DNA from: Glaciimonas sp.
GTDB lineage: Bacteria; Pseudomonadota; Gammaproteobacteria; Burkholderiales; Burkholderiaceae_D
Direction: 5' to 3'
Length of the DNA stretch: 64,000 nt
Assembly (NCBI GenBank): GCA_012927625.1
Contig: JABBOV010000003.1
Coordinates: 310,001-374,000, forward strand
Shown: piece by piece, positions 2,246 through 15,309 of the stretch
How positions within the stretch are numbered: the first letter of the stretch is position 1
Layout of the letters: every line of letters begins with the position of its first letter
Notes under the pieces: model-generated
What the model was told of the DNA's origin: nothing
Database searches by the model: none
Seen by the model: only the letters and a program-made list of their open reading frames with translations
Position numbers and translations under genes: made by a program

Positions 2246-3037
2246 TCAGGCGCCTCGAAATTGTGCAACTCTTTTTTCGCGAAACGCGGCGCTCCCTTCG
2301 CGATAATCGTCTGTATAGCCCAGCGCGCGCTGCGAGGCGATCTCCAGATCCAGTTGCTGTGCGAGTGTATTTCCGGGCGCAGCGTAAATGGCTCGCTTGC
2401 TCAGGCCCAGCGCTTTGGTGGCCGAATGCGCCAGTTGATCGATCAGCGCCTGCGTTTCGGACAGGAATGCATCGTCGTCAACGCAGCGCCAGATCAAACC
2501 CCATTGCTCGGCGCGGGCGGCATCCAGTTTTTCGTTGAGCATTGCGAGGCCGATAGCGCGTGCAGGGCCGATCAGCTGCGGTAAAAATTGCGTTGCGCCG
2601 GCATCGGGCAACAGCCCGAGTTTGCTGAACCCCTGCAAAAAGTAGGCGGACTTGGCGGCGATGACGATATCGCAAGCCAGCGCCAGCGTCGAACCCACGC
2701 CGGCGGCGAGCCCGTTGAGCGCGCACACCACAGGCACTGGCAATGCGCGCAATTTCAACACCAGCGGCTTGCAATAGGTTTCCAGCGATTGGCCGAGATC
2801 GCGCGGCTTGTCGTCTGTGCTCGGCACGCGGTCGCTTTGGTCCTGTCCGGCGCAAAAGGCGCGCCCGACGCCGGTGAATACCAAGACGCGCAAGCCGGGG
2901 TCGTGTTCCACACCGGCTATGACCGCGGCAATTTTTTCATGCATGCGGTCATTGAGGCTATTGAGCCGTTCCGGCCGGTTGAGCGTAATACGCGCAACGC
3001 CGTCTGCATATGAAAACAAAATCCCAGAATCATTCAT
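2246..3037 (-). CDS. Enoyl-CoA hydratase/isomerase family protein (PaaG-like)
   Basis: A 263-residue crotonase-fold enzyme of normal length. Visible features are the FCAGQD oxyanion-hole segment near residue 62, the second oxyanion segment GLAAGVGSTLALACD, and LGLLPDAGATQFLPQLIG. The Asp of the LPDAG segment is the catalytic residue of PaaG-type isomerases, whereas the paired glutamates of classical hydratases are not evident. Members interconvert enoyl-CoA double-bond isomers, hydrate enoyl-CoAs or, in PaaG, isomerise ring-epoxide CoA thioesters. It sits between the lyase gene and the transporter genes in a single-direction operon. Isomerase activity is favoured, but the exact substrate cannot be told. 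Confidence 0.88.
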   Translation of the reverse strand: MNDSGILFSYADGVARITLNRPERLNSLNDRMHEKIAAVIAGVEHDPGLRVLVFTGVGRAFCAGQDQSDRVPSTDDKPRDLGQSLETYCKPLVLKLRALPVPVVCALNGLAAGVGSTLALACDIVIAAKSAYFLQGFSKLGLLPDAGATQFLPQLIGPARAIGLAMLNEKLDAARAEQWGLIWRCVDDDAFLSETQALIDQLAHSATKALGLSKRAIYAAPGNTLAQQLDLEIASQRALGYTDDYREGSAAFREKRVAQFRGA

Positions 3038-3106
3038 CGTGTCTCCGCTCGTTTAAATAAACGCCGCCGGCCGATTAGCTGCCGGCCCATCACAGGTTGC
3101 CGCAAT

Positions 3107-3886
3107 CTACTCGCGCAGGTGAGCGCTGGCCTCGGCCTCGATGCGGTGCCAGATCTCGTGCGCCATCGGTGTTTCGGATTCTTCCATAATGTGCCCGACC
3201 AGCCCAATGGCGCGGGCCATCACGCCGAAGCCACGCACGATCTTCCACGGAAAACCAAACTCACAACAGATCGCGCCGATTGCCCCTGTGGCGTTGATCG
3301 GCAAAACCTTGCCCGATGCGCGTTCGGCCTCGGCGGCGATCAGTTGTATCAGTTCGATGTAGCGACCTTTCATGCCGTTTTCTTCGGCAATCTGGAACAG
3401 CCGCGGCGTGCGCGGATCGATCGGTTTGTGCACCGGATGCCCGATGCCGGGAATGATCTGCTTGCGCTCGCGGAATGCCGCGACGGTGCGTACCGCCAGC
3501 GCGTTCAGATCGGCGTCGTCGCCGGCACCGGCCAATGCGTCGTATAACATTTTTGCCGCACCCTCCGTGGTGCCGACAAACACCGTACCCAGGCCGCACA
3601 AGCCGGCGGCGACGGCTGCTTGCAGGGATTCGGGCGCGCCGGCATAGGTCAGGCGGGCAACCAGCGCACTCGGCGTAATGCCGTGTTCGACCAGGGTGAT
3701 CAGCATTGCGTTGAATACGCGTGACTGGTTTTGCGTGGCGGTTTTCCCGGTCAATTGAAAATAGGCGAAATCGCCGAGATTCATGTGGCCCAGTATTTCA
3801 TTTGGCAAGTCCTTGCCGCGTATCGTAATACGGTCGGGTGTGCTGAAGCCGATGTCGGACCGAATTATTGCTGCTTTGCGAGTCAT
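3107..3886 (-). CDS. Citryl-CoA lyase / short citrate-synthase-fold protein
   Basis: A 259-residue protein with the citrate synthase fold signature but far shorter than housekeeping citrate synthases (about 430 residues). It covers the large-domain core: LVEHG (His68), the GAPESLQAAVAAGLCGLG segment, and IPGIGHPVHK with His150 and His153 in the position of the catalytic oxaloacetate-binding histidine. Short members are annotated as citryl-CoA lyases or as uncharacterised condensing/cleaving enzymes. In this operon it more likely cleaves a 3-hydroxy-acyl-CoA type intermediate than runs the TCA cycle. The start at 3886 follows a gap of only 36 bp from the MaoC gene stop. Fold confident, reaction inferred. 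Confidence 0.8.
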   Translation of the reverse strand: MTRKAAIIRSDIGFSTPDRITIRGKDLPNEILGHMNLGDFAYFQLTGKTATQNQSRVFNAMLITLVEHGITPSALVARLTYAGAPESLQAAVAAGLCGLGTVFVGTTEGAAKMLYDALAGAGDDADLNALAVRTVAAFRERKQIIPGIGHPVHKPIDPRTPRLFQIAEENGMKGRYIELIQLIAAEAERASGKVLPINATGAIGAICCEFGFPWKIVRGFGVMARAIGLVGHIMEESETPMAHEIWHRIEAEASAHLRE

Positions 3887-3922
3887 ATCAATATCTCCGA
3901 AATTACCAGACTGGTACGAAAT

Positions 3923-4822
3923 TCATGCGCCGATATCGGCGATACCGTTGCTTAAAACGATCTTGTCGCGGTCCACTACGCGCGACTGAAAATAAACCCG
4001 CTTGCTGCCGCCTTGGCCGCCTTCGCTGTCTTCGTTAGCGCGCCAGAACTCGGTGCGTATCGTTTCTCCGGGAAATACCGGCGAAGAAAACCGCGCCTCC
4101 AGCGATTGCAAGCGCTCCGGCCGGTAGTCGCAACACATTTTCAGTATTGCGTGGCAAGCGACACCGTAGGTACCTAGGCCATGCAGGATCGGTCTTGGAA
4201 AACCTGCCGCTTTTGCCGCCTGCGGATCCGCATGCAGGGGATTCATGTCGCTGGACAGGCGATACAGCAGGGCCATCTCGGGCCGCGTACTCATATCGCA
4301 CGATTGATCGGCGGGACGGGACGGCATCGCAGGTCGGGCTGGCCATGCATCGCTGGGCTGCCCGGCGATGCTGAATCCGCCCTCGGCGCGACAGAACGAT
4401 ACTTGCTCCACCGTCGCCAGCATTGCGCCGCTTTTCTTGTCGATCACCTGGCGCTCGACCACCACCAGCGCGCCTTTATCGGTGCCTTTATCCACCACGC
4501 CGGTGACGCGTGAGCGGCCGATGACGACGCCGCTACTGGGCAGGGAGCGATGCAGGCGAATTTTTTGTTCTCCATGGACAACTTTACTCAAGTCAATGCC
4601 CGACGCCGGGACGCCCATCCATAGTCCGGGGTGGCCCAAAATGACGGCCATGCTGGGTACAGCCTGAAGATCGCGTTCGTAGACGAAACGTAATTCGTCG
4701 GCGTCGATCGGGTCCTTGCCCAAGCCGAGCGCGAGCGCATACAGAATCGTATCCTTCTCGGAATAGCGGTGTTCCAACTCGGGGAACACCCAGTTCTTCA
4801 GCTTGAAATAATCGATTGCCAT
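3923..4822 (-). CDS. MaoC family hydratase (2-enoyl-CoA hydratase 2-like, double hotdog)
   Basis: A 299-residue protein with two hotdog halves. The C-terminal half carries the hydratase 2 motif SSDMNPLHADP (Asp192, Asn194, His197) followed by AGFPRPILHGLGTYG, the catalytic signature of R-specific enoyl-CoA hydratases such as the hydratase part of peroxisomal MFE-2. The start is set at 4822 (MAIDYFKLKN) because a GGAAAAAAC ribosome-binding stretch precedes it; the frame is open 111 bp further upstream but would run into the SDR gene. With the SDR encoded next to it (34 bp away), it resembles a split MFE-2: one protein hydrates, the other oxidises the 3-hydroxyacyl-CoA. Confidence 0.88.
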   Translation of the reverse strand: MAIDYFKLKNWVFPELEHRYSEKDTILYALALGLGKDPIDADELRFVYERDLQAVPSMAVILGHPGLWMGVPASGIDLSKVVHGEQKIRLHRSLPSSGVVIGRSRVTGVVDKGTDKGALVVVERQVIDKKSGAMLATVEQVSFCRAEGGFSIAGQPSDAWPARPAMPSRPADQSCDMSTRPEMALLYRLSSDMNPLHADPQAAKAAGFPRPILHGLGTYGVACHAILKMCCDYRPERLQSLEARFSSPVFPGETIRTEFWRANEDSEGGQGGSKRVYFQSRVVDRDKIVLSNGIADIGA

Positions 4823-4856
4823 GTTTTTTCCGTAGCGCCGCAGATCCGTGCCGGTA

Positions 4857-5777
4857 TCAGACCGGATCCCAACTGAATACGTCTGCCGAGCGGTCGAGCG
4901 GGATAAAGCTTTGCCTGAGCGCCGGTATCGCATGCGCGCCGATACTTTCCGGGGTCCAGCCTTCGGAACGGTGTACCGAACGCACCGGCCGCGGCTGACT
5001 CATCAGAAAAATTTCATTATTCCTTACTGTAAATATTTGTGCGTTGACGTCACGGGCGTCATCGCTGGCCAAATACACCGCCAACGGCGCAATTTTTGCC
5101 GGCGTCATTTGCTTGATCTTGTCGACGCGGGCCTGCTGTTCTTGATCCTTGATCGGAATCGAGCTGATCATGCGGCTCCATGCAAACGGCGCAATGCAGT
5201 TGGAGCGAACATTGAACCGCTGCATATCGAGCGCAATCGATTTGGACAAGGCCGTCAGGCCCAGCTTGGCCGCCGAGTAATTGGCTTGCGCAAGATTGCC
5301 GATCAGCCCCGAGGTCGACGTCATGTGGATCAGCGATCCGCCGGCCTGCTCCTTGAAATGCAGCGCCGCTGCTTTGCTGATGAAATAGGCACCGTACAGA
5401 TGCACTTTGAGCACTGCATCCCATTCGTCGGTACTCATTTTATGAAACAGACTGTCGCGCAGGATGCCGGCATTATTGACCACGCAATCTATCCGTCCGA
5501 ATGTATCAACTGCGGCTTCGACCACCTTGGCGGCGCTGCCGGCTTCGGCCACGCTGTCGCTGTTGGCCACGGCTTTGCCGCCCAATGCCTTGATCTCATC
5601 GACGACCTGTTGCGCCGGACCGCCGCTGAGTCCCTCTCCATGCAGCGAAGCGCCGATGTCGTTGACCACGACCCTGGCGCCATGCTGCGCCATCGCCAGC
5701 GCGATATCGCGACCGATCCCGCCGCCTGCGCCGGTGACGACCACCACTTTCCCCTCTACTATGTTCTGAACTGTCAT
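4857..5777 (-). CDS. SDR family oxidoreductase (3-hydroxyacyl-CoA dehydrogenase type)
   Basis: A 306-residue classical short-chain dehydrogenase with TGAGGGIG (residues 15-22) for NAD(P) binding, NNAG (101-104), a catalytic Ser around 154-156, and YSAAK with Tyr167 and Lys171. It is about 50 residues longer than a minimal SDR, and the length and sequence resemble the dehydrogenase part of MFE-2. It is the first gene of the minus-strand operon and has a good ribosome-binding site (AAGGAAAA). It should oxidise the (R)-3-hydroxyacyl-CoA made by the MaoC protein encoded next. The operator-like palindrome at 5887-5901 lies about 110 bp upstream. Confidence 0.88.
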   Translation of the reverse strand: MTVQNIVEGKVVVVTGAGGGIGRDIALAMAQHGARVVVNDIGASLHGEGLSGGPAQQVVDEIKALGGKAVANSDSVAEAGSAAKVVEAAVDTFGRIDCVVNNAGILRDSLFHKMSTDEWDAVLKVHLYGAYFISKAAALHFKEQAGGSLIHMTSTSGLIGNLAQANYSAAKLGLTALSKSIALDMQRFNVRSNCIAPFAWSRMISSIPIKDQEQQARVDKIKQMTPAKIAPLAVYLASDDARDVNAQIFTVRNNEIFLMSQPRPVRSVHRSEGWTPESIGAHAIPALRQSFIPLDRSADVFSWDPV

Positions 5778-6237
5778 GCTGATTTTCCTTGATCTCGATT
5801 TTGACTACTTTATTTGCTGTCCGAAGCAGCACTGGGAGATATAGTCTGGAATCAAAGATTAAGTGTCAATAGCGAGGAAAGTAGTGTTCCGTACATCGGA
5901 ATAATATTGATTGATGGATCTGGGACTTTTCGCCTTGGATGCTCCTTGTTACAGCGTATTTTTTTCATGCGCATGGAAAATATCGCATTGCAGCAATTTT
6001 TTCACTCTTGCAAGCGTCTGTCTCTGAAAGTTATAGCACCTCCGACGGGGCTCCCGATAGAAGCGGCGACTACGCCGAATTTACTGCGTCCAACCTGAAT
6101 TAGAATTACAATTCCAAAGTACGGATCATAATTTTATGTTGGATTGACGTTTTTAGGCCACTGTTGCATGGTTGCCTACAGCATGTTTTTGCTTAAAAAA
6201 TAATGAAAAAAAACGTCACCAGAAGGGGAGTGTGCAC
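5778..6237. other. Gap between the catabolic operon and the transposon remnant
   Basis: No convincing gene. The left part should hold the promoter of the minus-strand operon and contains the 5-5-5 palindrome at 5887-5901. The right part (about 6050-6237) leads into the Tn3 transposase remnant, which has an AGAAGGGGAG ribosome-binding stretch before its ATG. I looked here for a 38-bp Tn3-type terminal inverted repeat and did not recognise one. Confidence 0.5.
5887..5901. promoter_or_regulatory. Operator-like palindrome TTCCG-N5-CGGAA
   Basis: A perfect inverted repeat, TTCCGTACATCGGAA, lies 110 bp upstream of the SDR start codon in the operon's promoter region. IclR-family regulators bind short palindromes of about this size and spacing, and two IclR genes lie at 10-11.8 kb. 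Assignment to either IclR protein is inference. Confidence 0.5.
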
Positions 6238-6976
6238 ATGATTGCAAAAACTGCCGCGCAATTTCCGCGCCAGCACATCCTCTCGATAAGATGGCTTCTA
6301 GAAAACACGCCGCCCCATATTGTCGGTCTGCTGCAAGGAGAACCGACGAAGTGGCATTGGAGCGAAGACGAACTGAAAATACAATGTTCGTTATCTGTCG
6401 AGGTATTGTCGCTACTGCCAGGACGCACCGATAGCGGACGGCTCGGATATGCAATTTTGCTGAAATTCTTTCAATTCCAAGGGTTTTTTCCAAGGCATCA
6501 AAAAAGCACCTCTCACGAAATTCCGGCCTACTTTGCGCAGGCAACCAATTCGGCACCAGCGGATTTCGATGTTTATGACTGGAGCGGGCGGCACCGGCCA
6601 GCGACACTGCAAACAGTTTCTGTGTTTTTTGGGACTAGGCCGTGCATCAGGCGAGAATTTGCAGTGACTACGCACATGGCTGACCGCCGGAGTATTGGCA
6701 CTGGACGTTCCATTAAAGCGGTTACTGGAAGTGGCGGTCGAGTGCTTTGCCCAACAGTCGCTGGCGCCGCTTGATCCGGCTCCATTGGAATGTTTGCTTC
6801 GATCAACCATTCATGCTCTCGAGATAACGCTATTCCAATCCATCGCCAGCCTGTTGAGCGCCGAAAGCAAGGCATCAATACACGCACTATTGACGGTCAA
6901 AGATCCAACCGTCGCTGACAAAAATAGTACTGCCGAGCACTTCATCCGTAATATTTCCAAAGGAGAAATACCTTGA
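6238..6976 (+). pseudogene. tnpA: 5' remnant of a Tn3-family transposase (TnpA, DUF4158 N-terminal region), frameshifted
   Basis: The first 130 codons read as the DUF4158 region at the N-terminus of Tn3-family transposases: RWLLENTPPHIVGLLQGEP, then RLGYAILLKFFQFQGFFPRH and the typical YDWSGR. In the T6 run at 6625-6630 the frame shifts by +1. The new frame continues as FLGLGRASGENLQ, meets a TGA at 6665-6667, then resumes as LRTWLTAGVLALDVPLKRLLEVA, again matching DUF4158. It ends at a TGA at 6974-6976 that overlaps the TTG start of cheW. The remaining roughly 750 residues, including the DDE catalytic core, are absent. It cannot make an active transposase. Confidence 0.8.
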
Positions 6977-7473
6977 ACACTGCAAGCAATCTCGTCAAAA
7001 CTGCTAATGCTCCAAACATTGCAGGAGTGGAATTTCTGGCCTTCACTTTGGGCCAGGAAGAGTACGGCAGTGATATACAGAAAGTGCAGGAATTGCGCGG
7101 TTACGATACCGTCGCCTGCATGTCCAATGCGCCCGAATTCATCAAGGGTGTGGTCAATCTGCGCGGCATCATCGTGCCAATCATCAATATGCGCATCAAT
7201 TTCAATTTTGACACGCCGACCTGCGGCCAGTTCACGGTGGTCATCATCCTCAACAGCAGTGAGCACGTGATGGGCATCGTGGTCAACAACTTGTCGAACG
7301 TAATCACGTTGGCTCCCCAGCAGATCAAGTCCACACCTGAAATGAGTGCGGCGCCCGATACAAATTATCTGATTGGCCTTGGTGCGGTCGAACAACGGAT
7401 GCTGATTTTTGTCGATACCGACAAGCTGAGGTTCAGCGGTGAGATGGGGCTGATTGAAAATCCTGCCGCATAA
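6973..7473 (+). CDS. cheW: CheW chemotaxis coupling protein
   Basis: A 166-residue CheW. The core GVEFLAFTLGQEEYGSDIQKVQELRGY and GVVNLRGIIVPIINMR are the conserved first beta-barrel strands and the signature around the receptor/CheA contact. The start is a TTG at 6973 preceded by AAAGGAG at good spacing; no closer ATG fits. CheW links receptors to the CheA kinase. It lies 53 bp before the chemoreceptor gene, so the pair forms a small module. No cheA, cheY or cheR is in the window, so it must work with a system encoded elsewhere. Its placement between tnpA and tnpR remnants suggests it arrived as transposon cargo. Confidence 0.92.
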   Translation: MNTASNLVKTANAPNIAGVEFLAFTLGQEEYGSDIQKVQELRGYDTVACMSNAPEFIKGVVNLRGIIVPIINMRINFNFDTPTCGQFTVVIILNSSEHVMGIVVNNLSNVITLAPQQIKSTPEMSAAPDTNYLIGLGAVEQRMLIFVDTDKLRFSGEMGLIENPAA

Positions 7474-7526
7474 CGCGAAAGTTATGCCACAAAATTAAGC
7501 TCGTCAATCGCAACAGGGGAAGAAAA

Positions 7527-9257
7527 ATGAATATTGCAAATTTAAAAATCGGCACGCGCCTAGGATTTGGTTTCGGTCTGATTCTCATGCTGCTTGCCGG
7601 CGTAGCAGCATTGGGCATCAACAGCATGAGCAAAACCGACGATGCGCTTCATCATATCGTCGACGTCAATGTCAAAAAGATGGCATATCTAGATGATATG
7701 AAAGGATCGGTGCATATCGTGGCGCGCGTAGAACGCACTGTCGCCATGTTATCGGACGAAAGAGAAGCCAATATCCAAAAGAAAAAAATCGACGAAGCGC
7801 GTGAAGCCTACAACGCAGCCTTTTCCTCGCTTGAGAAAATGCCGTTGGACGAAGCCGGCAAGACTTTCGTCGCCAAGATCAAGGAAGACCAAGTCTCCAC
7901 TCGACCGCTCAACGACAAATTCATGGAAATGGCGAAAACGGACAAAGATGGCGCAGTGCAATTCCTATTGAAGGAAGCCGGACCGGCAACCACCAAATGG
8001 CAGGATGCGATGCACCAGTTCACTCAATTGCAACGGGAAAAGAACAAGAAGGAGGAGGAATCCGCGATAGAAAATTATAATTCCGCTCGCCTGCTAATGC
8101 TGGCCTTGGCTACCATCGCCTTGTTTGCCGGAGCAGGCATTGCCTGGTTCGTCAGCCGCTCAATCACGCAGCCGATCTATCAAGCGGTCAAAGTTGCGAA
8201 AACGGTGGCCGCCGGTGATCTCACTAGCCATATCGAAGTTAGTTCAACGGACGAAACTGGTCAACTGCTGCAGGCACTTAAAGACATGAACGGCTCGCTG
8301 CAAAACATTGTCAGCCAAGTGCGCACAGGGGCCGACACTATTGCCACCGCTTCCGGCCAGATTGCCAGCGGAAATATGGACTTGTCTTCCCGTACCGAAC
8401 AACAAGCCAGTTCACTGGAAGAGACTGCATCGTCAATGGAGGAGCTAACCACCACTGTCAAGCAGAATGCCGACAACGCACGTCAAGCCAATAACTTGGC
8501 GAGAGCTGCATCGGACGTAGCAAGTAAAGGTGGAGCAGTTGTTTCAGAGGTAGTCGGCACGATGGATTCGATTAACGAATCGGCAAAGAAAATCGTCGAT
8601 ATTATCAGCGTCATCGATGGCATTGCGTTTCAAACCAACATCTTGGCCTTGAATGCTGCAGTGGAAGCTGCGCGCGCTGGCGAGCAGGGGCGCGGCTTCG
8701 CGGTGGTTGCAGCGGAGGTGCGTAATCTGGCTCAACGTAGCGCAGGCGCGGCCAAGGAAATCAAAACATTGATCGGCGATTCGGTTGAAAAAGTAGCGGC
8801 AGGCAGCAAGCTGGTCGACCAAGCAGGAGCGACAATGAATGAAGTTGTGGAAAGCGTAAAGCGCGTGACCGACATAATCAGCGACATTGCCGCAGCCAGC
8901 CAGGAACAAACTGCCGGAATTGAGCAGATAAACTTTGCCATTACGGAAATGGACAATGTGACACAGCAAAATGCTGCACTGGTGGAAGAGGCAGCGGCTG
9001 CTGCCGGAGCGCTGCAAGACCAGGCAGACAATCTGGCTCAAGTAGTAAATGTATTCAAAACAGATGGGGCGCATATGATGGCCGCTACTCCCATTAAATC
9101 AAACCGCCCAGATCAGCGCAATACTGCCGTTCACCCGAAGTTGGGAGCGCACAATACAAATCGTCCTGTGCTCAATATCAAAAAGCCTTTGAAACAGGTG
9201 GCGAATGCGTCTTCTGCCATTACTGGCAACGGCGCCTCTGAGTGGGAGGAATTTTGA
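7527..9257 (+). CDS. Methyl-accepting chemotaxis protein with C-terminal CheR-binding pentapeptide
   Basis: A 576-residue full-length chemoreceptor. A first membrane helix spans about residues 10-30, a four-helix-bundle type periplasmic region follows, and a second helix (LLMLALATIALFAGAGIAWF) lies near 189-210. A HAMP domain follows from about 211. The signalling tip ILALNAAVEAARAGEQGRGFAV (split here as ILALNAAVEAA and GEQGRGFAV) lies near residues 371-395. The last five residues are EWEEF, a xWxxF tether for CheR/CheB, showing that the gene is not truncated. A GGGGAAG ribosome-binding stretch precedes the ATG. The ligand is unknown. Full length contrasts with the shortened mcp reported on Tn1721. 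Confidence 0.93.
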   Translation: MNIANLKIGTRLGFGFGLILMLLAGVAALGINSMSKTDDALHHIVDVNVKKMAYLDDMKGSVHIVARVERTVAMLSDEREANIQKKKIDEAREAYNAAFSSLEKMPLDEAGKTFVAKIKEDQVSTRPLNDKFMEMAKTDKDGAVQFLLKEAGPATTKWQDAMHQFTQLQREKNKKEEESAIENYNSARLLMLALATIALFAGAGIAWFVSRSITQPIYQAVKVAKTVAAGDLTSHIEVSSTDETGQLLQALKDMNGSLQNIVSQVRTGADTIATASGQIASGNMDLSSRTEQQASSLEETASSMEELTTTVKQNADNARQANNLARAASDVASKGGAVVSEVVGTMDSINESAKKIVDIISVIDGIAFQTNILALNAAVEAARAGEQGRGFAVVAAEVRNLAQRSAGAAKEIKTLIGDSVEKVAAGSKLVDQAGATMNEVVESVKRVTDIISDIAAASQEQTAGIEQINFAITEMDNVTQQNAALVEEAAAAAGALQDQADNLAQVVNVFKTDGAHMMAATPIKSNRPDQRNTAVHPKLGAHNTNRPVLNIKKPLKQVANASSAITGNGASEWEEF

Positions 9258-9287
9258 TCTAGCTGACAACATGAAGCACAACCTTGT

Positions 9288-9315
9288 GTTGCACAAACGA
9301 ACGCGCTTGTGCAAC
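9288..9315. repeat. Inverted repeat between the chemoreceptor and resolvase-like genes
   Basis: GTTGCACAA (9288-9296) and TTGTGCAAC (9307-9315) are perfect 9-bp arms separated by 10 bp. The position directly upstream of the resolvase gene is where Tn3-family elements carry their res site, so this may be one resolvase-binding subsite. A transcript hairpin is an alternative. No poly-T tract follows. Confidence 0.55.
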
Positions 9316-9319
9316 GATT

Positions 9320-9889
9320 ATGCTTATCGGATATGCCAACGCCCCAAACGACGATCAAGAAACCGCCACGCGAGAATTTGCTCTTAAACAGGCAAGGTGC
9401 AAAAAAATATTTTCTGAAATTGCATCCGGCGGTCAACGGGATCGTCCGCAACTCATGCGTGCGTTGGATCAGCTACGCGCTGGCGATGTGTTGGTGCTCG
9501 GGAAGCTTGACCGGCTGTCACGCTTATTGAAGAATTTGCTGAAGATCATGGAGCGGATCGACCGACTCAGTGCCAGTTTTCACAGCTTGGCCAAAGCAAT
9601 CGAGACTGCGACTCCAGCCGGACGTATGATGATGCAGATGATAGGATCATTTGGGGAATTTGAACGGTCCATGATCCGGGAACGCACCAGAGCAGGACTG
9701 GAGTCGGCGCGTAAGCAAGGCCATATCGGCGGACGGAAACCAAAACTCGACGCATATCAACAGCAAGAAATCGTCGCAATGGTCATTCCCGGCCAGAAAA
9801 CGACTGCTGAGACGGCTCGATTATTCAATATTCACCCGGCAACCGCTTCCCGTCTATTGGACTCGCAACCTCAACATGTAAAAGGGTAA
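9320..9889 (+). CDS. tnpR: Serine recombinase (Tn3 resolvase/invertase family) lacking the catalytic serine
   Basis: A 189-residue protein of normal resolvase length, starting MLIGYANAPNDDQ. Family members read GYARVSTDDQ here, so the conserved Arg and the catalytic Ser are replaced by Asn and Pro (codons AAC and CCA). Other active-site elements remain: KLDRLSR (Asp and two Arg), GEFERSMIRERT with the Glu-Arg pair, and a C-terminal helix-turn-helix (TAETARLFNIHPATASRLL). The frame is intact. The frame is open 36 bp further upstream from a TTG, but the ATG at 9320 matches the family start. Strand cleavage should not be possible. DNA binding, for example as an autorepressor, could persist. Confidence 0.85.
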   Translation: MLIGYANAPNDDQETATREFALKQARCKKIFSEIASGGQRDRPQLMRALDQLRAGDVLVLGKLDRLSRLLKNLLKIMERIDRLSASFHSLAKAIETATPAGRMMMQMIGSFGEFERSMIRERTRAGLESARKQGHIGGRKPKLDAYQQQEIVAMVIPGQKTTAETARLFNIHPATASRLLDSQPQHVKG

Positions 9890-9954
9890 ATTGGCGCACT
9901 GAAAATTGTGTAGTGGTTTTTGCAGCTACGTGCACATTACCCCTAGAATGACGA

Positions 9955-9984
9955 GATGGAGATGGATATGGATATGGATATGGA
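9955..9984 (+). repeat. Hexanucleotide tandem repeat (GATGGA/TATGGA, five units)
   Basis: Five consecutive 6-bp units: two GATGGA then three TATGGA. It lies between the resolvase-like gene and the first IclR gene and makes up the start of a short open frame. Changes in unit number would keep that frame but alter leader length. Confidence 0.8.
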
Positions 9985-10069
9985 GACAATCATGAAATTC
10001 TTGGATCTGCGTGTTTCGGGTTTCATGTGCATGCATGCGGCTTGCCGGCACGACAAGAGCCGCCCGTGA
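9956..10069 (+). CDS. Possible 37-residue leader peptide with Met-Asp repeats
   Basis: An ATG-initiated frame of 37 codons starting MEMDMDMDMETIMKFLDLR, encoded at its start by the hexamer repeat. Its TGA (10067-10069) overlaps a GTG at 10066 that is the preferred start of the first IclR gene, forming GTGA, the arrangement typical of translational coupling. The ribosome-binding site is weak (GACGAG). I do not recognise the peptide. It may be a leader frame controlling IclR synthesis or simply chance; low to moderate confidence. Confidence 0.35.
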   Translation: MEMDMDMDMETIMKFLDLRVSGFMCMHAACRHDKSRP

Positions 10070-10956
10070 GCGCGCTTGCAGAAAGCCATAAGGCGAAGTC
10101 GACGCCACGCAAGCCTACGGTGCCGCAGATGGAAGTGCGCATCGTCTTGCGCGCGCCGCGCGCATCAAATCATGGGCGCCCTGCGAGCACCGGTAAATTG
10201 ATAGTGCCGATAGAGCGCGGCTTTGCAGTGCTCGACGCATTCCTTGAGCAGGAACAGTGGCTGGCCAATCAGGAAATCGCGGAACGCACAGCGATTCCGA
10301 AGGCGACTGTATCACGCCTGACGCGCACCTTAACCGACCTGGGATACCTGACACATTCGGAAACACTGAGGAAATACCGGCTAGCGTCGGCGGTGCTCAA
10401 TCTTGGCTATGCAGCAATGGCGGATACAGATGTGGTGTCTCTGGCGCGGCCGCTAATGCAAGATTTTGCGGATGACAACGGCGTATTCGTCGCCGTGGCT
10501 GGGCGTGACGGGCTGGACATGATCCTGTTCGAAAACTGCCATAGCGCATCGACTCTCGCAACAATAGGACTGAGTGTGGGGGAACATATGCCGATCGCTG
10601 CATCGCCGCTGGGATGGGCGCTGCTGGCGGGCTTGCCGGAAGCAGAGCGTTCCTATTTGCTGGACCACCTGCGGCCTTATCACAAGCGCGACCGCTGGGT
10701 ACTACTGCGACAGCGTATCGTGGAAGCGTCAGATCAGGTGGCAGAAAAAGGGTATTGTGCATCCACCGGAGACTGGGGTGCGGACATCACCGTCGTCGCC
10801 GTGCCGTTGAACGTGGAGGGACGTTTGCCAATGGCGCTGGTATGTGCAGGATCGCCTCGGCTGACCAACAGAAAAAAACTCGACGAGCAATTGGGACGAA
10901 AGTTGGTTGCTCTAGTCAATGTGTTAAAAAAACGCGCGGTGGCGGTAGATGGCTGA
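10066..10956 (+). CDS. IclR family transcriptional regulator (first of a pair)
   Basis: An IclR-type regulator of about 296 residues. A winged helix-turn-helix begins at IVPIERGFAVLDAFLEQEQWLANQEIAE and continues with IPKATVSRLTRTLTDLGYL. The effector domain follows (ARPLMQDFADDNGVFVAVAGRDGLDMI and GYCASTGDWGADITVVAVP). The start is uncertain: GTG 10066 gives a short unstructured N-terminus and couples with the leader frame, GTG 10027 adds 13 residues, and ATG 10129 is also possible. Its end overlaps the next IclR gene by 8 bp, so both are co-expressed. The natural target may be the minus-strand operon at 1-5777, now separated by the transposon remnant. Confidence 0.88.
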   Translation: MSALAESHKAKSTPRKPTVPQMEVRIVLRAPRASNHGRPASTGKLIVPIERGFAVLDAFLEQEQWLANQEIAERTAIPKATVSRLTRTLTDLGYLTHSETLRKYRLASAVLNLGYAAMADTDVVSLARPLMQDFADDNGVFVAVAGRDGLDMILFENCHSASTLATIGLSVGEHMPIAASPLGWALLAGLPEAERSYLLDHLRPYHKRDRWVLLRQRIVEASDQVAEKGYCASTGDWGADITVVAVPLNVEGRLPMALVCAGSPRLTNRKKLDEQLGRKLVALVNVLKKRAVAVDG

Positions 10957-11833
10957 GGACGCGATGAAGCCAACCGTGCAACGCAGGGCCGGCACACCCG
11001 ATCCGCAGTTATCGGAGCAGATTTCGGTGCGCGGTCAGGACGCCGGTGTCGCCGTCGGCGCGAGCACAACCACCCAGACGCTTGAGCGCGCCCTTGGACT
11101 ACTCAAGGCTTTTCGCGGTAGCCCCAAACCGCTGACGCATGCGGAGTTAGTGCGCCGCACCGGTTATTCCAAGGCATCGATATCGCGCGTGGCCGCCACT
11201 TTGGTGGTGCTCGGTTATCTTGATCGGGCGCTCGACGGCGTTCGCTTCCAGATCGGTGTGCGCGGGCTGAGGATCGGCCGCCGCTATTTATCGAATAGCC
11301 TCCTCACGCGGCTGGCTAAACCAATCATGCAACAACTGGCCGACCGCAATAATGTGTCCGTCGGGCTGGCTGTGGCCAATCAGCTCGACATGATTTATAT
11401 CAAGTACTGCAACAGCGGCAGAATCGCCACGTTACGGCTGGGCGTCGGGCGGACGGTACCGATGGAGCTCAGTTCCATCGGCCGGACGTATGTATGGGCG
11501 CAGCCGCCTGCGCGGCGTCAACGCTTGTTATTCGATATCCTGAAAAAAATAGGGTCGCACGGGCCGGCGGTGGTTGCGAAGATGGAACATGCCTTCGAAG
11601 ACTTGGACAAGTACGGCTACTGCATGGCAGCGGGCGAATATCAGCGCGACACCTTCGCCGTCAGCGTTCCGGTCTGGCTCGGGGATCCTCCTGTTGTCAT
11701 GGCGTTGAATTGCAGCGCGGTTTCCTACGTGCCGGACCTGGAAAATATCAGAAAGGTATTGGCACCTACTCTACAGAGCACTGCGGAGAAATTGATCGAC
11801 GTAATGTCTACCATCGATAGCGCGCTATTTTAG
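10949..11833 (+). CDS. IclR family transcriptional regulator (second of a pair)
   Basis: A 294-residue IclR-type protein. After a roughly 35-residue unstructured N-terminus come the helix-turn-helix (TLERALGLLKAFRGSPKPLTHAELV, then YSKASISRVAATLVVLGYL) and the effector domain (LAKPIMQQLADRNNVSVGLAVANQLDMIYIKY, GYCMAAGEYQRDTFAVSVP). It overlaps the upstream IclR gene by 8 bp. The two proteins look only distantly alike, so they may sense different compounds or form a mixed regulator. Paired IclR genes beside aromatic or CoA-thioester operons are a known arrangement, but the effector is unknown here. Confidence 0.9.
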   Translation: MAEDAMKPTVQRRAGTPDPQLSEQISVRGQDAGVAVGASTTTQTLERALGLLKAFRGSPKPLTHAELVRRTGYSKASISRVAATLVVLGYLDRALDGVRFQIGVRGLRIGRRYLSNSLLTRLAKPIMQQLADRNNVSVGLAVANQLDMIYIKYCNSGRIATLRLGVGRTVPMELSSIGRTYVWAQPPARRQRLLFDILKKIGSHGPAVVAKMEHAFEDLDKYGYCMAAGEYQRDTFAVSVPVWLGDPPVVMALNCSAVSYVPDLENIRKVLAPTLQSTAEKLIDVMSTIDSALF

Positions 11834-12121
11834 GGACGCCGCGCGTTTCCGGGGCATCCAGGCCTATAGCCATGTGAACCGATACGACTGGTCTCCATTT
11901 CACCTTCCGCCCATTCAATGCCGGTTGTTGATAGGCGTTGTTGCATAAATCAAAATTGGGTCAAAGCGTCCCATTTTTTGCTGTTTTCTAGATATAGACG
12001 GACATTTGCATGCCTGGATTTGTCATTTTGCTAAGTGCAGACAAGCTGATCCATGCCTCTGTTTTTTGCTGTTGCAGCGCGCACTTTCATGGTGTTGCCG
12101 AAAATGCAGGCCGAGCTGGCT
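11834..12121. other. Gap between convergent regulator genes, with a possible IS5-family end
   Basis: No gene. At 11934-11951 the sequence GGCGTTGTTGCATAAATC resembles terminal repeats of IS5-family elements as I remember them. No transposase frame follows and no matching opposite end was recognised, so at most a scar remains. No strong terminator was seen for either convergent gene. Confidence 0.3.
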
Positions 12122-13060
12122 TTATTTTTCATCAATAGTTTTGGGATTTTGCTCGATGCGCTGCTGGCTAAGCTCCGCCGGCCTACAGATAAAATCCACC
12201 AGTTCGCGTGCATATAGCGGCAGCGCATCAAGTTTTTGCACCACGACGCTACGCTCCCGTACCGCCCAAGGCTCGGTCAGGTCAACCAGTGCCAACTGCA
12301 TGAAGCGACTGTGACGCAATGCGGCTGACTGCGGCAGAATCCCGATCCCAATATTGGTTTCGATCATGCGGCACATCGCTTCAAAACTACGCACCTGAAT
12401 CCGCAACTTCAGGCGCTGGCCGCTTTCGGACACTATCCGGCTCAGGAAATGATGCAAGGTGCTGCCCTCGTGCAAACCGATATGCTCGTATTCGAGCGTT
12501 TCTGCGAACGCGATGCGTTCTTTGCCCGCCAACGGGTGTTCCAGTGCGCTCGCCAGCACCAGTTTATCGGTGGAAAAATTCAGTATCTCCAGTCCATCAC
12601 CCTGAATCGGGCCGGCCACGATGCCGATATCAGCGGTTCCGTCCCGAATTGCGCGCACGATTTCCTGATTGAGCCGTTCCTCAAGCGCGACGTTGACATG
12701 CGGATGCGTGGCAAGGAACGAGCGCAGTACTTCCGGCATGAACTCGGTCACTGCAGTGGTATTGGCGAAGATGCGGATATGCCCCTTGATGCCATTGTTG
12801 TACTGCTGCATATCGCTTTTGCAGCGTTCAACCTGTTGCATGAACAATTGCGCATGATGCAACAAGGTCATGCCGGCAGCCGTTAATTGCACTCCGCGAC
12901 TCTCGCGATAGAGCAGCTTCATGCCAAAACGCGTTTCCAGTTCCTTGATCCGATTACTGGTGGCCGCCAGCGACAGATGCATCCGCTCGGCGCTACGCGT
13001 CAAACTGTGAAGTTCACCGATAGTAATCAGCAGGCGCAGGTCGGTCAGATCGAAAAGCAT
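12122..13060 (-). CDS. LysR family transcriptional regulator of the adjacent operon
   Basis: A 312-residue LysR regulator. The N-terminal helix-turn-helix reads LRLLITIGELHSLTRSAERMHLSLAATSNRIKELE, and the effector domain follows with RIFANTTAVTEFMPEVLRSFL. The start is placed at 13060 because AAGGAGCGCCTGAGC directly precedes this ATG; an in-frame upstream extension to 13162 lacks such a site. It is transcribed away from the plus-strand catabolic operon beginning at 13222. The 161-bp gap should hold the shared operator region. LysR proteins in this position usually activate the divergent operon in response to a pathway intermediate. Confidence 0.92.
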   Translation of the reverse strand: MLFDLTDLRLLITIGELHSLTRSAERMHLSLAATSNRIKELETRFGMKLLYRESRGVQLTAAGMTLLHHAQLFMQQVERCKSDMQQYNNGIKGHIRIFANTTAVTEFMPEVLRSFLATHPHVNVALEERLNQEIVRAIRDGTADIGIVAGPIQGDGLEILNFSTDKLVLASALEHPLAGKERIAFAETLEYEHIGLHEGSTLHHFLSRIVSESGQRLKLRIQVRSFEAMCRMIETNIGIGILPQSAALRHSRFMQLALVDLTEPWAVRERSVVVQKLDALPLYARELVDFICRPAELSQQRIEQNPKTIDEK

Positions 13061-13221
13061 GCTCAGGCGCTCCTTGTTTTTTAAATATACGTCTAATAAC
13101 AGTAAAACAGAATTCACCGCAGCCAAAGGCACCCTTCCAAAAATGCAGATTGTCATCGCCACTGACGTGGCACAGACTATCCATCATTAATGAACCAACC
13201 CGGCACTGCGCCCGATATACG

Positions 13222-14121
13222 ATGGAATCTGTGTCATTTGACTTGGAATTGATGCAACAGTGGGTCGGACGCCAGGAAGTGCGCACCGATCTGATCGATG
13301 CCACGCTTGCGGCCGCGCTCGCTGCGACGCTGGATCATACTACTGCCCCACAACCGGGGTCGGCATTGCCGCCATTGTGGCACTGGATCTATTTTTGGAC
13401 TCATTGCCGAGAATCCGAAATCGGCGCTGATGGCCACCCGCAACGGGGTGGGTTCTTGCCGCCGATACCATTGCCGCGCCGGATGTGGGCGGGAGGACGT
13501 CTGACCTTTCCGGCAGTGCTGCCGATTGGGGCCGCCGTCACCCGCAGCTCTAAAATCAAGAGTGTCACCGGCAAAAACGGCCAAAGCGGCCAGCTGGCGT
13601 TCGTTACGGTACAGCATGAAGTTGCCGCCGATGGCATCATTGCCATCACCGAAGAACACGACATCGTTTACCGCAATATGCCGCCCCTGCCGCAATCTCT
13701 GCCGCAATCCAGTGCAATTGCACCAGCGCCAAAACCGGCCCCAACCGAAGCACTCTGGCGGCGCACTGTGACCCCCGATCCGGTTTTGCTGTTCCGCTAC
13801 TCTGCCCTGACCTTCAATGGCCATCGCATCCATTACGACCGCAGCTATGTGACCGGGGTTGAAGGCTATCCTGGCCTGATCGTCCACGGCCCGCTGATTG
13901 CGACGCTGCTGGCTGATCTGGTACGCCGCCATCTGCCGGATGCTCGCCTGACCGAATTCAATTTCCGCGCAGTCGGCCCTTTGTTCGACATCGAGCCATT
14001 TACCTTGTGCGGACAACCCGACGCAGACGGCCGCAGCGTGCAACTGTGGGCGCAGAATGCGCGCGGCGAATTTGCGATGCAGGCCGAGGCAAAGCTTGCC
14101 GGCCCGCTCATTAAGCAATAA
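13222..14121 (+). CDS. FAS1-like / mesaconyl-C4-CoA hydratase-type protein
   Basis: A 299-residue double-hotdog protein. The N-terminal half carries LPPLWHWIYFWTHCRESEIGADGHP, found in mesaconyl-C4-CoA and itaconyl-CoA hydratase-like proteins. The C-terminal half carries FRYSALTFNGHRIHYDRSY and YPGLIVHGPLIATLLADL, the hydratase signature with His and Asp. The start at ATG 13222 fits the family N-terminus; the frame is open upstream but less likely. It is the first gene of an operon with a CoA-transferase and a CitE-like lyase. The expected reaction is hydration of a C5 unsaturated dicarboxyl-CoA to a citramalyl-CoA. Family call firm, substrate inferred. Confidence 0.82.
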   Translation: MESVSFDLELMQQWVGRQEVRTDLIDATLAAALAATLDHTTAPQPGSALPPLWHWIYFWTHCRESEIGADGHPQRGGFLPPIPLPRRMWAGGRLTFPAVLPIGAAVTRSSKIKSVTGKNGQSGQLAFVTVQHEVAADGIIAITEEHDIVYRNMPPLPQSLPQSSAIAPAPKPAPTEALWRRTVTPDPVLLFRYSALTFNGHRIHYDRSYVTGVEGYPGLIVHGPLIATLLADLVRRHLPDARLTEFNFRAVGPLFDIEPFTLCGQPDADGRSVQLWAQNARGEFAMQAEAKLAGPLIKQ

Positions 14122-14148
14122 TTTAACCCATAATTCAGGAGACATAAG

Positions 14149-15309
14149 ATGTTGGCACCAACGGACAAGTTTCAAGAGATACGCGATGCAGTGCGCGCAT
14201 TGTGCGCGGAATTTCCACCCGAGTATTTTCGCCGCATCGACCAGGAGCGCGGTTATCCAGAGCAGTTCGTTGACGCGCTGACCAAAGCCGGCTGGCTGGC
14301 CGCGCTGATCCCACCGGAATACGGCGGCTCCGGCCTGGGCCTGACCGAAGCCTCGGTGATCATGGAAGAGATCAACCGCTCGGGCGGCAATTCGGGCGCT
14401 TGCCACGGCCAAATGTACAACATGGGCACGCTGTTGCGGCACGGCTCGGAGCGGCAAAAAAACGAATATCTGCCCAAAATTGCCAGCGGGGAATTACGGC
14501 TGCAGACCATGGCCGTGACCGAACCTTCCACCGGCACAGATACCACGAAAATCAAGACCACCGCGGTCAAAAAAGGCGACCGCTATGTGATCAACGGTCA
14601 AAAGGTCTGGATTTCACGGGTGCAGCATTCCGACCTGATGATTTTGCTGGCGCGCACCACGCCGCTGGCAGAAGTACAGAAAAAATCCGAGGGCATGTCG
14701 ATTTTCCTGGTCGATCTGCGCACAGCCATCGGCAACGGCCTCACGGTGCAACCGATCCTGAACATGGTGAACCATGAGACCAATGAACTGTTCTTTGAAA
14801 ACCTGGAAATCCCGGCGGAAAATCTGATCGGCGAAGAAGGTCAAGGATTCAAGTACATTCTTGACGGCCTGAATGCGGAACGCGCGCTGATCGCCGCCGA
14901 ATGCATCGGCGACGGCTACTGGTTCATCGACAAGGTGACCAAATACGTGAACGAACGCATCGTTTTCGGGCGGCCGATCGGCCAGAACCAGGGCGTGCAG
15001 TTCCCGATTGCAAAAGCCTACATCAACCTAGAAGCCGCCAACCTGATGCGCTACAAGGCGTGCGAATTGTTCGATGCGCATCAACCGTGCGGCACCCAGG
15101 CCAACATGGCGAAACTATTGGCCGCCGACGCATCGTGGGAAGCTGCCAACGCCTGCCTGCAATTTCATGGCGGCTTCGGCTTTGCGCATGAATACGATGT
15201 CGAGCGTAAATTCCGTGAAACCCGGTTGTATCAGGTCGCGCCAATCTCGACCAACCTGATCCTGTCGTATGTCTCCGAGCATGTGCTCGGCCTGCCGCGC
15301 TCATTCTGA
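14149..15309 (+). CDS. Acyl-CoA dehydrogenase
   Basis: A 386-residue flavoprotein of standard length. It contains MAVTEPSTGTDTTKIKTTA, the FAD/substrate loop, VINGQKVWIS, and the C-terminal LQFHGGFGFAHEYDVERKFRETRLYQVAPISTNLI segment typical of the family. The ATG follows CAGGAGACATAAG, a strong ribosome-binding site. It oxidises an acyl-CoA to an enoyl-CoA and passes electrons to electron-transfer flavoprotein. It lies 27 bp after the hydratase gene. In a C5-dicarboxylate scheme it could make the unsaturated CoA ester that the hydratase uses, for example from a methylsuccinyl- or glutaryl-type CoA; this is inference. Confidence 0.92.
   Translation: MLAPTDKFQEIRDAVRALCAEFPPEYFRRIDQERGYPEQFVDALTKAGWLAALIPPEYGGSGLGLTEASVIMEEINRSGGNSGACHGQMYNMGTLLRHGSERQKNEYLPKIASGELRLQTMAVTEPSTGTDTTKIKTTAVKKGDRYVINGQKVWISRVQHSDLMILLARTTPLAEVQKKSEGMSIFLVDLRTAIGNGLTVQPILNMVNHETNELFFENLEIPAENLIGEEGQGFKYILDGLNAERALIAAECIGDGYWFIDKVTKYVNERIVFGRPIGQNQGVQFPIAKAYINLEAANLMRYKACELFDAHQPCGTQANMAKLLAADASWEAANACLQFHGGFGFAHEYDVERKFRETRLYQVAPISTNLILSYVSEHVLGLPRSF

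Follow-up and report, generated by a model that had tools for sequence, protein, structure and literature searches.

An apparently dead Tn3-family element in Glaciimonas sp. that probably encloses a retained cheW-chemoreceptor pair

How did a cheW gene and a complete chemoreceptor gene come to lie among the remains of Tn3-family transposition genes, and can they still move? The question is raised by a stretch of 64,000 nucleotides from Glaciimonas sp. (GenBank assembly GCA_012927625.1, contig JABBOV010000003.1, positions 310,001 to 374,000 of the forward strand), which we call the window and whose own positions are used below. An earlier reading made from the letters alone (the sequence-only reading) had described the order tnpA remnant, cheW, 576-residue chemoreceptor, resolvase, and had taken it for a mobile taxis module. 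We recover that order, with profile matches on the same (+) strand: a tnpA 5′ remnant, cheW, the chemoreceptor gene (mcp) and a serine-resolvase gene (tnpR). We find it probable that this is a dead Tn3-family element enclosing a cheW-mcp pair that has been retained and works; this judgement does not extend to the time at which the pair was captured.

The element spans 6225-9943 (3,719 bp) and reads left inverted repeat, tnpA remnant, cheW, mcp, tnpR, right inverted repeat. Its features are as follows.

6220-6224, no strand: left flank, CAGAA, possibly a degenerate 5-bp target duplication (weak evidence)
6225-6262, + strand: left terminal inverted repeat, begins GGGG and overlaps the tnpA start
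6238-6930, + strand: tnpA 5′ remnant (Tn3 family, DUF4158), a pseudogene (frameshift near 6590, stop near 6665)
6973-7473, + strand: cheW, 166 aa, TTG start; PF01584 at 96.7 bits
7527-9257, + strand: full-length chemoreceptor gene mcp, 576 aa; 4HB_MCP_1, HAMP and MCPsignal domains, C-terminal EWEEF
9288-9315, no strand: perfect inverted repeat of 9 bp whose arms are 10 bp apart, lying upstream of tnpR; a candidate subsite for resolvase binding
9320-9889, + strand: tnpR-like serine resolvase gene, ATG at 9320 in a frame open from 9284; PF00239 at 117 bits
9906-9943, − strand: right terminal inverted repeat, GGGG at 9940-9943 of the minus strand
9944-9948, no strand: right flank, TAGAA, possibly a degenerate target duplication

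Tn3-family ends are terminal inverted repeats of about 38 bp that begin with GGGG. A 38-bp terminal repeat had been anticipated by the sequence-only reading and does exist, at 6225-6262 and 9906-9943, where the two copies are identical at 27 of 38 positions with one gap. Each end is the other's best partner across the 64-kb window (26/38 ungapped); the second-best partner of the left end reaches 22, that of the right end 24, and of 1,000,000 random pairs not one scored above 25/38. When the right end was compared with 72,556 plasmid records (BLAST, E up to 10), the sole match was a Nitrosomonas record (E 3e-5). The right repeat agrees at 34/38 with the repeat adjoining tnpA in Nitrosomonas, and the left repeat, taken ungapped from 6224, at 28/38. 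The letters beside a related tnpA fragment on the Nitrosomonas plasmid recur before the window tnpA and, reversed, after the window tnpR. An end pattern built from the Nitrosomonas and window letters matches the window twice (6230 on the + strand, 9913-9937 on the − strand) and 100 shuffles not at all; in the whole draft genome (25 contigs, 97.8% complete), with up to three mismatches, it occurs only at these two sites. A general repeat finder with a 16-nt minimum missed the terminal repeats. The guanine-plus-cytosine (GC) content is about 48-54% inside the element, 52-62% in the upstream 5 kb and 56-60% at 10.2-11.7 kb; it is likewise low, 50-55%, at 11.7-13.2 kb. We infer that the element was mobile in the past, and its mobility as a unit would follow from the two ends. 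Just beyond the right end, ahead of an IclR-family gene, short tandem GGATAT repeats can be seen by eye (9955-9985).

Both recombination genes are damaged. The DUF4158 profile, proposed by the sequence-only reading as a check on the tnpA region, matches the reading frame P0004 (6238-6699) with 37.6 bits, the cut-off being 27.4, and a search of the genome with it returns a match within the window at C10:316421-316702 (38.1 bits). Near 6590 the tnpA homology passes into another frame; it runs into a stop near 6665 and can be followed to about 6930, so that about 200-215 of about 1,000 codons are left in place of a TnpA of about 1,000 residues with a DDE domain. The remnant shares 50% protein identity with the Nitrosomonas plasmid fragment over residues 14-124. 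Relatives occur in 4 of 392 family genomes including its own, the other three at 29% identity, and a tblastn search of plasmids with the middle fragment gave no match. Two Nitrosomonas records (L097, about 4831-5253; L038, about 5961-6383) hold the same short DUF4158 fragment, each with a single Tn3-type end; in L038 the fragment is annotated as a gene. Elsewhere in the host genome (C1:8000-20000, at 6323-11728 of that piece) there is another Tn3-type tnpA, interrupted by IS21-like istA/istB (7399-9724, by eye); the end-like repeat near 11780 is a different one, and a resolvase lies at 2495-3055.

In serine resolvases Ser10 and Arg8 are catalytic residues. In the window TnpR, numbered after gamma-delta resolvase, Asn, Pro and Asn stand at the positions of Arg8, Ser10 and Thr11, and the catalytic serine is thus missing: the protein reads YANAPN where gamma-delta resolvase has YARVST and the DNA-invertase 4m6f YVRVST. 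TnpR retains the resolvase domain and a KLDRLSR motif. R-V-S-T is intact in all six other resolvases aligned with it, among them those of Rhodoferax (59% identical) and Paraburkholderia (55%); the aligned chain 3uj3 has Ala at the serine position. Upstream of tnpR, where a res site was sought, one 9-bp palindrome (9288-9315) could be recognised, but not a set of three subsites. Judged by their sequences, tnpA and tnpR appear dead, and present mobility of the element is therefore not supported. Of the mobile module that had been proposed, the pair's position within a Tn3-type element with matching ends stands, while current mobility does not. The Paraburkholderia fungorum relative of TnpR (NZ_CP099649.1, 1-3657 of the stretch taken) has a Tn3 transposase gene on one side and, on the other, genes whose annotations are CheB (large) and response regulator.

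Whether the pair rode on the element depends on when it entered. The alternative that survives best holds that a Tn3 element inserted and decayed, and that cheW-mcp entered afterwards on the chromosome by deletion or recombination, never having moved as cargo. It differs from the reading we prefer only in the time of capture, and the two likelihoods are not mutually exclusive. In its favour, cheW-mcp replaces most of tnpA, which is not a usual passenger position: according to an excerpt of PMC7157771, the passenger genes of Tn3 elements mostly stand apart from those for transposition. It also gains from the fact that a second copy of the unit did not turn up. Among 399 genomes of the order, the end pattern occurs in 3 (the host, G713 and G656), and cheW-mcp within such ends was not seen in G713 or G656. 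The G656 repeat, which starts GGGGTAGTGTGCACATAGCTG, agrees at 30/38; a resolvase with 30% identity to the window TnpR lies about 0.8 kb inward, and no tnpA match was found within the 12 kb examined. Scans of plasmids, genome contigs and viruses with the end gave no copy of the whole unit. The pattern is also present in a contig of Nitrosomonas sp. Nm84 (genome-contig scan), and a Nitrosospira contig has one end (31/38); in the stretches examined, neither this contig nor the Nitrosomonas records show more than one. The genome-contig scan gave four end-pattern matches in all. Two of these (L095, Flavobacterium; L096, Sphingomonadaceae), together with a viral match (L099), do not start with GGGG and were set aside as chance. 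The order tnpA-cheW-mcp-tnpR was not found elsewhere via cheW, tnpA, the pair's DNA or the repeats, no joint search having been made.

The flanks were likewise compared as DNA, the SDR flank and the IclR flank being sought in 12 genomes including the host's. Matches to the SDR flank occur in 5 of the 11 other genomes, and of these matches those in G061 and G001 alone are long, at about 890 bases; the IclR flank occurs in none of the 11, and the two flanks were not found together at DNA level in three genomes of the same genus. Given that the IclR flank is missing from all 11 and that long SDR matches are confined to two genomes, no empty site can be demonstrated. Against late entry, the pair lies entirely within both ends, and the closest pair among the matches listed belongs to another genus (G039, 76% DNA identity over 7030-9072). 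We regard late entry as a serious possibility, albeit a somewhat improbable one, and lean slightly towards the pair having been inside the element already on its arrival. The G039 pair is itself without tnpA or tnpR; therefore the cheW-mcp pair as such did not originate with Tn3.

Of 383 family genomes, 332 contain CheW relatives at E 1e-30 or better, mostly one to five each. For their context, up to 1.5 kb was taken around 30 cheW loci (29 matches with loci in other genomes and the host's own copy on contig C21); being the best-scoring matches, these are biased toward the window's kind. cheA stands beside cheW in 19 of the 30 and is absent from 11. A receptor adjoins cheW in nine of these 11; of the others, L067 lies near a contig edge and L068 shows none. 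No TnpA or TnpR match lies within 1.5 kb of cheW at any of the 30 loci. In a CheW tree of 34 rows, the window CheW groups with seven others, all from cheA-less loci (support 99/96). These seven still group without it (99/97), and a rebuilt tree that includes it gives 100/97. The window CheW has a long branch and a composition unlike the other rows, and its placement inside the group is therefore unsure. Missing cheA is not confined to this group, as six further cheA-less loci, the C21 copy included, fall outside it.

Four of the seven grouped CheWs come from one genus and align as shared chromosomal neighbourhoods. Another belongs to a pair bracketed by IS26 on Phytobacter and Citrobacter plasmids. 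In NZ_AP018757.1 and NZ_CP137189.1, cheW and a PAS (Aer-like) receptor gene lie between two IS26 copies (7952-10268 of each stretch taken); one of these plasmids is conjugative and one mobilizable, and both are from human isolates. At least 80% of the bracketed stretch is found in four plasmid records and in none of 5,426 E. coli genomes; by listing, CP035636.1 and NZ_CP041047.1 carry it wholly or mostly. A CheW scan of genome contigs matched 50 stretches, none of them confirmed. It is tempting, if doubtful, to go further: a separate CheW lineage might travel and evolve with its own receptor as a plug-in cassette, mobilised at least twice, by vehicles that are not related to each other (Tn3-type ends and IS26), with each CheW preferring its partner receptor. 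Under such a scheme, detached pairs would supply the adaptor for the whole array, since the host's motB-cheY-cheA-mcp run has no cheW.

Is the cargo itself intact? A PF01584 match at 6973-7473, directly before mcp, agrees with the earlier claim that the receptor comes with a cheW. The protein has the CheW domain and could be aligned to the solved CheW chains 2ho9 and 8c5v, yet it scores 177.6 bits against the equivalog NF007903, whose cut-off is 260. The 4HB_MCP_1, HAMP, MCPsignal, CheW and Resolvase profiles all exceed their cut-offs. The receptor is complete, as had been read from the letters, and has at 576 aa the sensor, the HAMP domain, the signalling hairpin with an intact tip and the CheR/CheB tether. 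According to an excerpt of PMC7390727, the second residue of the CheR/CheB pentapeptide is predominantly W and the fifth predominantly F, and both are present in the terminal EWEEF. Both genes are open frames, and the ratio of nonsynonymous to synonymous substitution rates (dN/dS) against the G039 pair is below 1, about 0.30 for cheW and about 0.10 for mcp; these values are rough, with dS near or above 1.

Such constraint bears on a second alternative, namely that the whole module, cargo included, is decaying and forms no functional receptor complex; late entry and this account could both be true. The dead tnpA and tnpR are what it would predict, and the dN of the window CheW to six shared relatives is 1.5-1.9 times that of the IS26 CheW. 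However, the G039 CheW is likewise fast, the window CheW lying only 1.0-1.5 times as far from the same six; neither cargo frame is interrupted; the receptor shows no acceleration (dN to G001 of 0.216, versus 0.209 for its G039 counterpart); and its signalling tip is intact. In 32 other CheW rows, 95 columns are conserved to at least 95%; the window CheW deviates at 22 of them, and any one of the 32, counted likewise, at 0-9. Given this and the higher dN, we read the window CheW as either specialising or under relaxed constraint, two states that its sequence does not tell apart. Decay of the whole module is, in our view, unlikely. That an ordinary chromosomal cheW-mcp pair is merely flanked by unrelated Tn3 debris is very improbable, for although four pairs of one genus have their chromosomal neighbourhoods in common and none of the 30 sampled loci (11 of them cheA-less) has a TnpA or TnpR match within 1.5 kb, two matching, correctly oriented terminal repeats found nowhere else in the draft genome strongly disfavour it, as does the element's GC content below that of the near flanks.

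The host has the genes with which such a receptor could work. Its genome contains flhA, cheR-cheD-cheB on contig C10 and four matches to the CheA dimerisation domain. On contig C6 there is a run from motB to cheY, cheA and mcp; upstream of motB lies a frame that looks motA-like by eye. Within the piece C6:12000-31000 the run occupies 7687-13697, with cheA at 9550-11664, mcp at 7687-9381 and no gene-sized gap between them; no cheW was matched in the 19 kb taken. Only two CheWs of the genome reach E 1e-30 or better, the window copy and one on C21 that forms a detached pair with an mcp; three others, elsewhere, match more weakly. Synteny links the pair on C21 to one in G003, of the same genus, at 94-96% DNA identity. 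Given this synteny, the window CheW is extra to a detached CheW shared within the genus, and the genome's motB-cheA run has none. A second chemosensory cluster is found at C19:285000-304000 (3566-14436 of that piece), with cheA, two distant cheW, receptor-like matches, cheR, cheD and cheB.

On the preferred reading, a dead element with a working cargo, the element would once have moved into this site with a transposase of its own or one supplied in trans. Most of tnpA would have given way to a chromosomal-type cheW-mcp pair, enclosed together with tnpR by one set of ends; later the element would have lost tnpA along with the nucleophile of its resolvase, and the pair would have been kept. The receptor would most likely sit in the membrane and bind a small ligand through its four-helix-bundle domain. 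It would most likely join the flagellar CheA arrays through its own CheW or that of C21, the likely kinase being the CheA encoded on C6, and its EWEEF tail should permit adaptation by CheR and CheB. It is plausible that the receptor-CheW pair adds a sensory input to the host.

Several observations weigh against this account. The left repeat starts with GGGG only if a one-base gap is allowed, and the 5-bp flanks CAGAA and TAGAA agree at four of five bases, an imperfect target duplication at best. The end pattern was composed after the sequences had been seen, and hence the other tests of the ends weigh more. Since the whole unit was not found a second time, capture before insertion is indistinguishable from capture after it. 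The window CheW may be losing function, given its changes at conserved positions, and promoter-like sites show no excess (4, against a shuffle mean of 4.3).

The prevailing view is that receptors dock onto an array that is conserved in the host, and receptors borne on transposons are already known. A mobile element that brought receptor and adaptor together would get round a poor fit to the host CheW, and private coupling of CheW paralogues to receptors becomes directly testable. Extra adaptors have been argued, in the available part of PMC4742279, to serve particular receptors. The relic would be a case of cargo outliving its transposon, the transposition genes being dead and the receptor under constraint, and the same-lineage pair on plasmids of human isolates extends the point past a single genome. 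A search of the open-access literature for cheW together with Tn3 gave nothing on point; the one paper naming all three sought terms treats them apart in the text available. By these searches, what is new within that literature is a CheW partner on a Tn3 element, a dead vehicle, and the same CheW lineage between IS26 copies.

The nearest known relatives in design are Tn1721 and Tn1722, whose ends we take to differ from those described here. They too are Tn3-family transposons, with tnpR, tnpA and inverted repeats of 38 bp, that carry a chemoreceptor gene, and an excerpt of PMC5756416 states that Tn1722 encodes a methyl-accepting chemotaxis protein (MCP) whose overexpression interferes with chemotaxis. 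They are capable of transposition (excerpt of PMC5736529), unlike the window element, which lacks tnpA function; and the portions of text at hand mention no cheW on them. The IS26 plasmid pair resembles ours in having cheW directly upstream of the receptor gene, no cheA in 18 kb and a CheW of the same lineage (66% identical); it differs in its IS26 bracket (Tn3 ends were not sought there) and in a receptor with PAS instead of 4HB. The transposons that carry mcpT-2 are presumably of the Tn4651 type, unlike the window element. Like it, they hold an MCP gene within transposon structures, on pWW0, pGRT1 and pPB and in strain W619, with the receptor alone in the figure legend of PMC7765201. Tn3-derived inverted-repeat miniature elements (TIMEs), non-autonomous Tn3 derivatives, share Tn3-derived ends and the want of a transposase and can be moved in trans; they are miniature, MITEs (miniature inverted-repeat transposable elements) measuring 50-500 bp in the portion of PMC13367494 available, whereas the window element has 3.7 kb with genes. 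Finally, AerB of the Vibrio cholerae island VSP-II is, in an excerpt of PMC8248653, borne on an island and described without a CheW of its own; it is likewise a horizontally gained receptor, one that couples to the host CheW and alters taxis.

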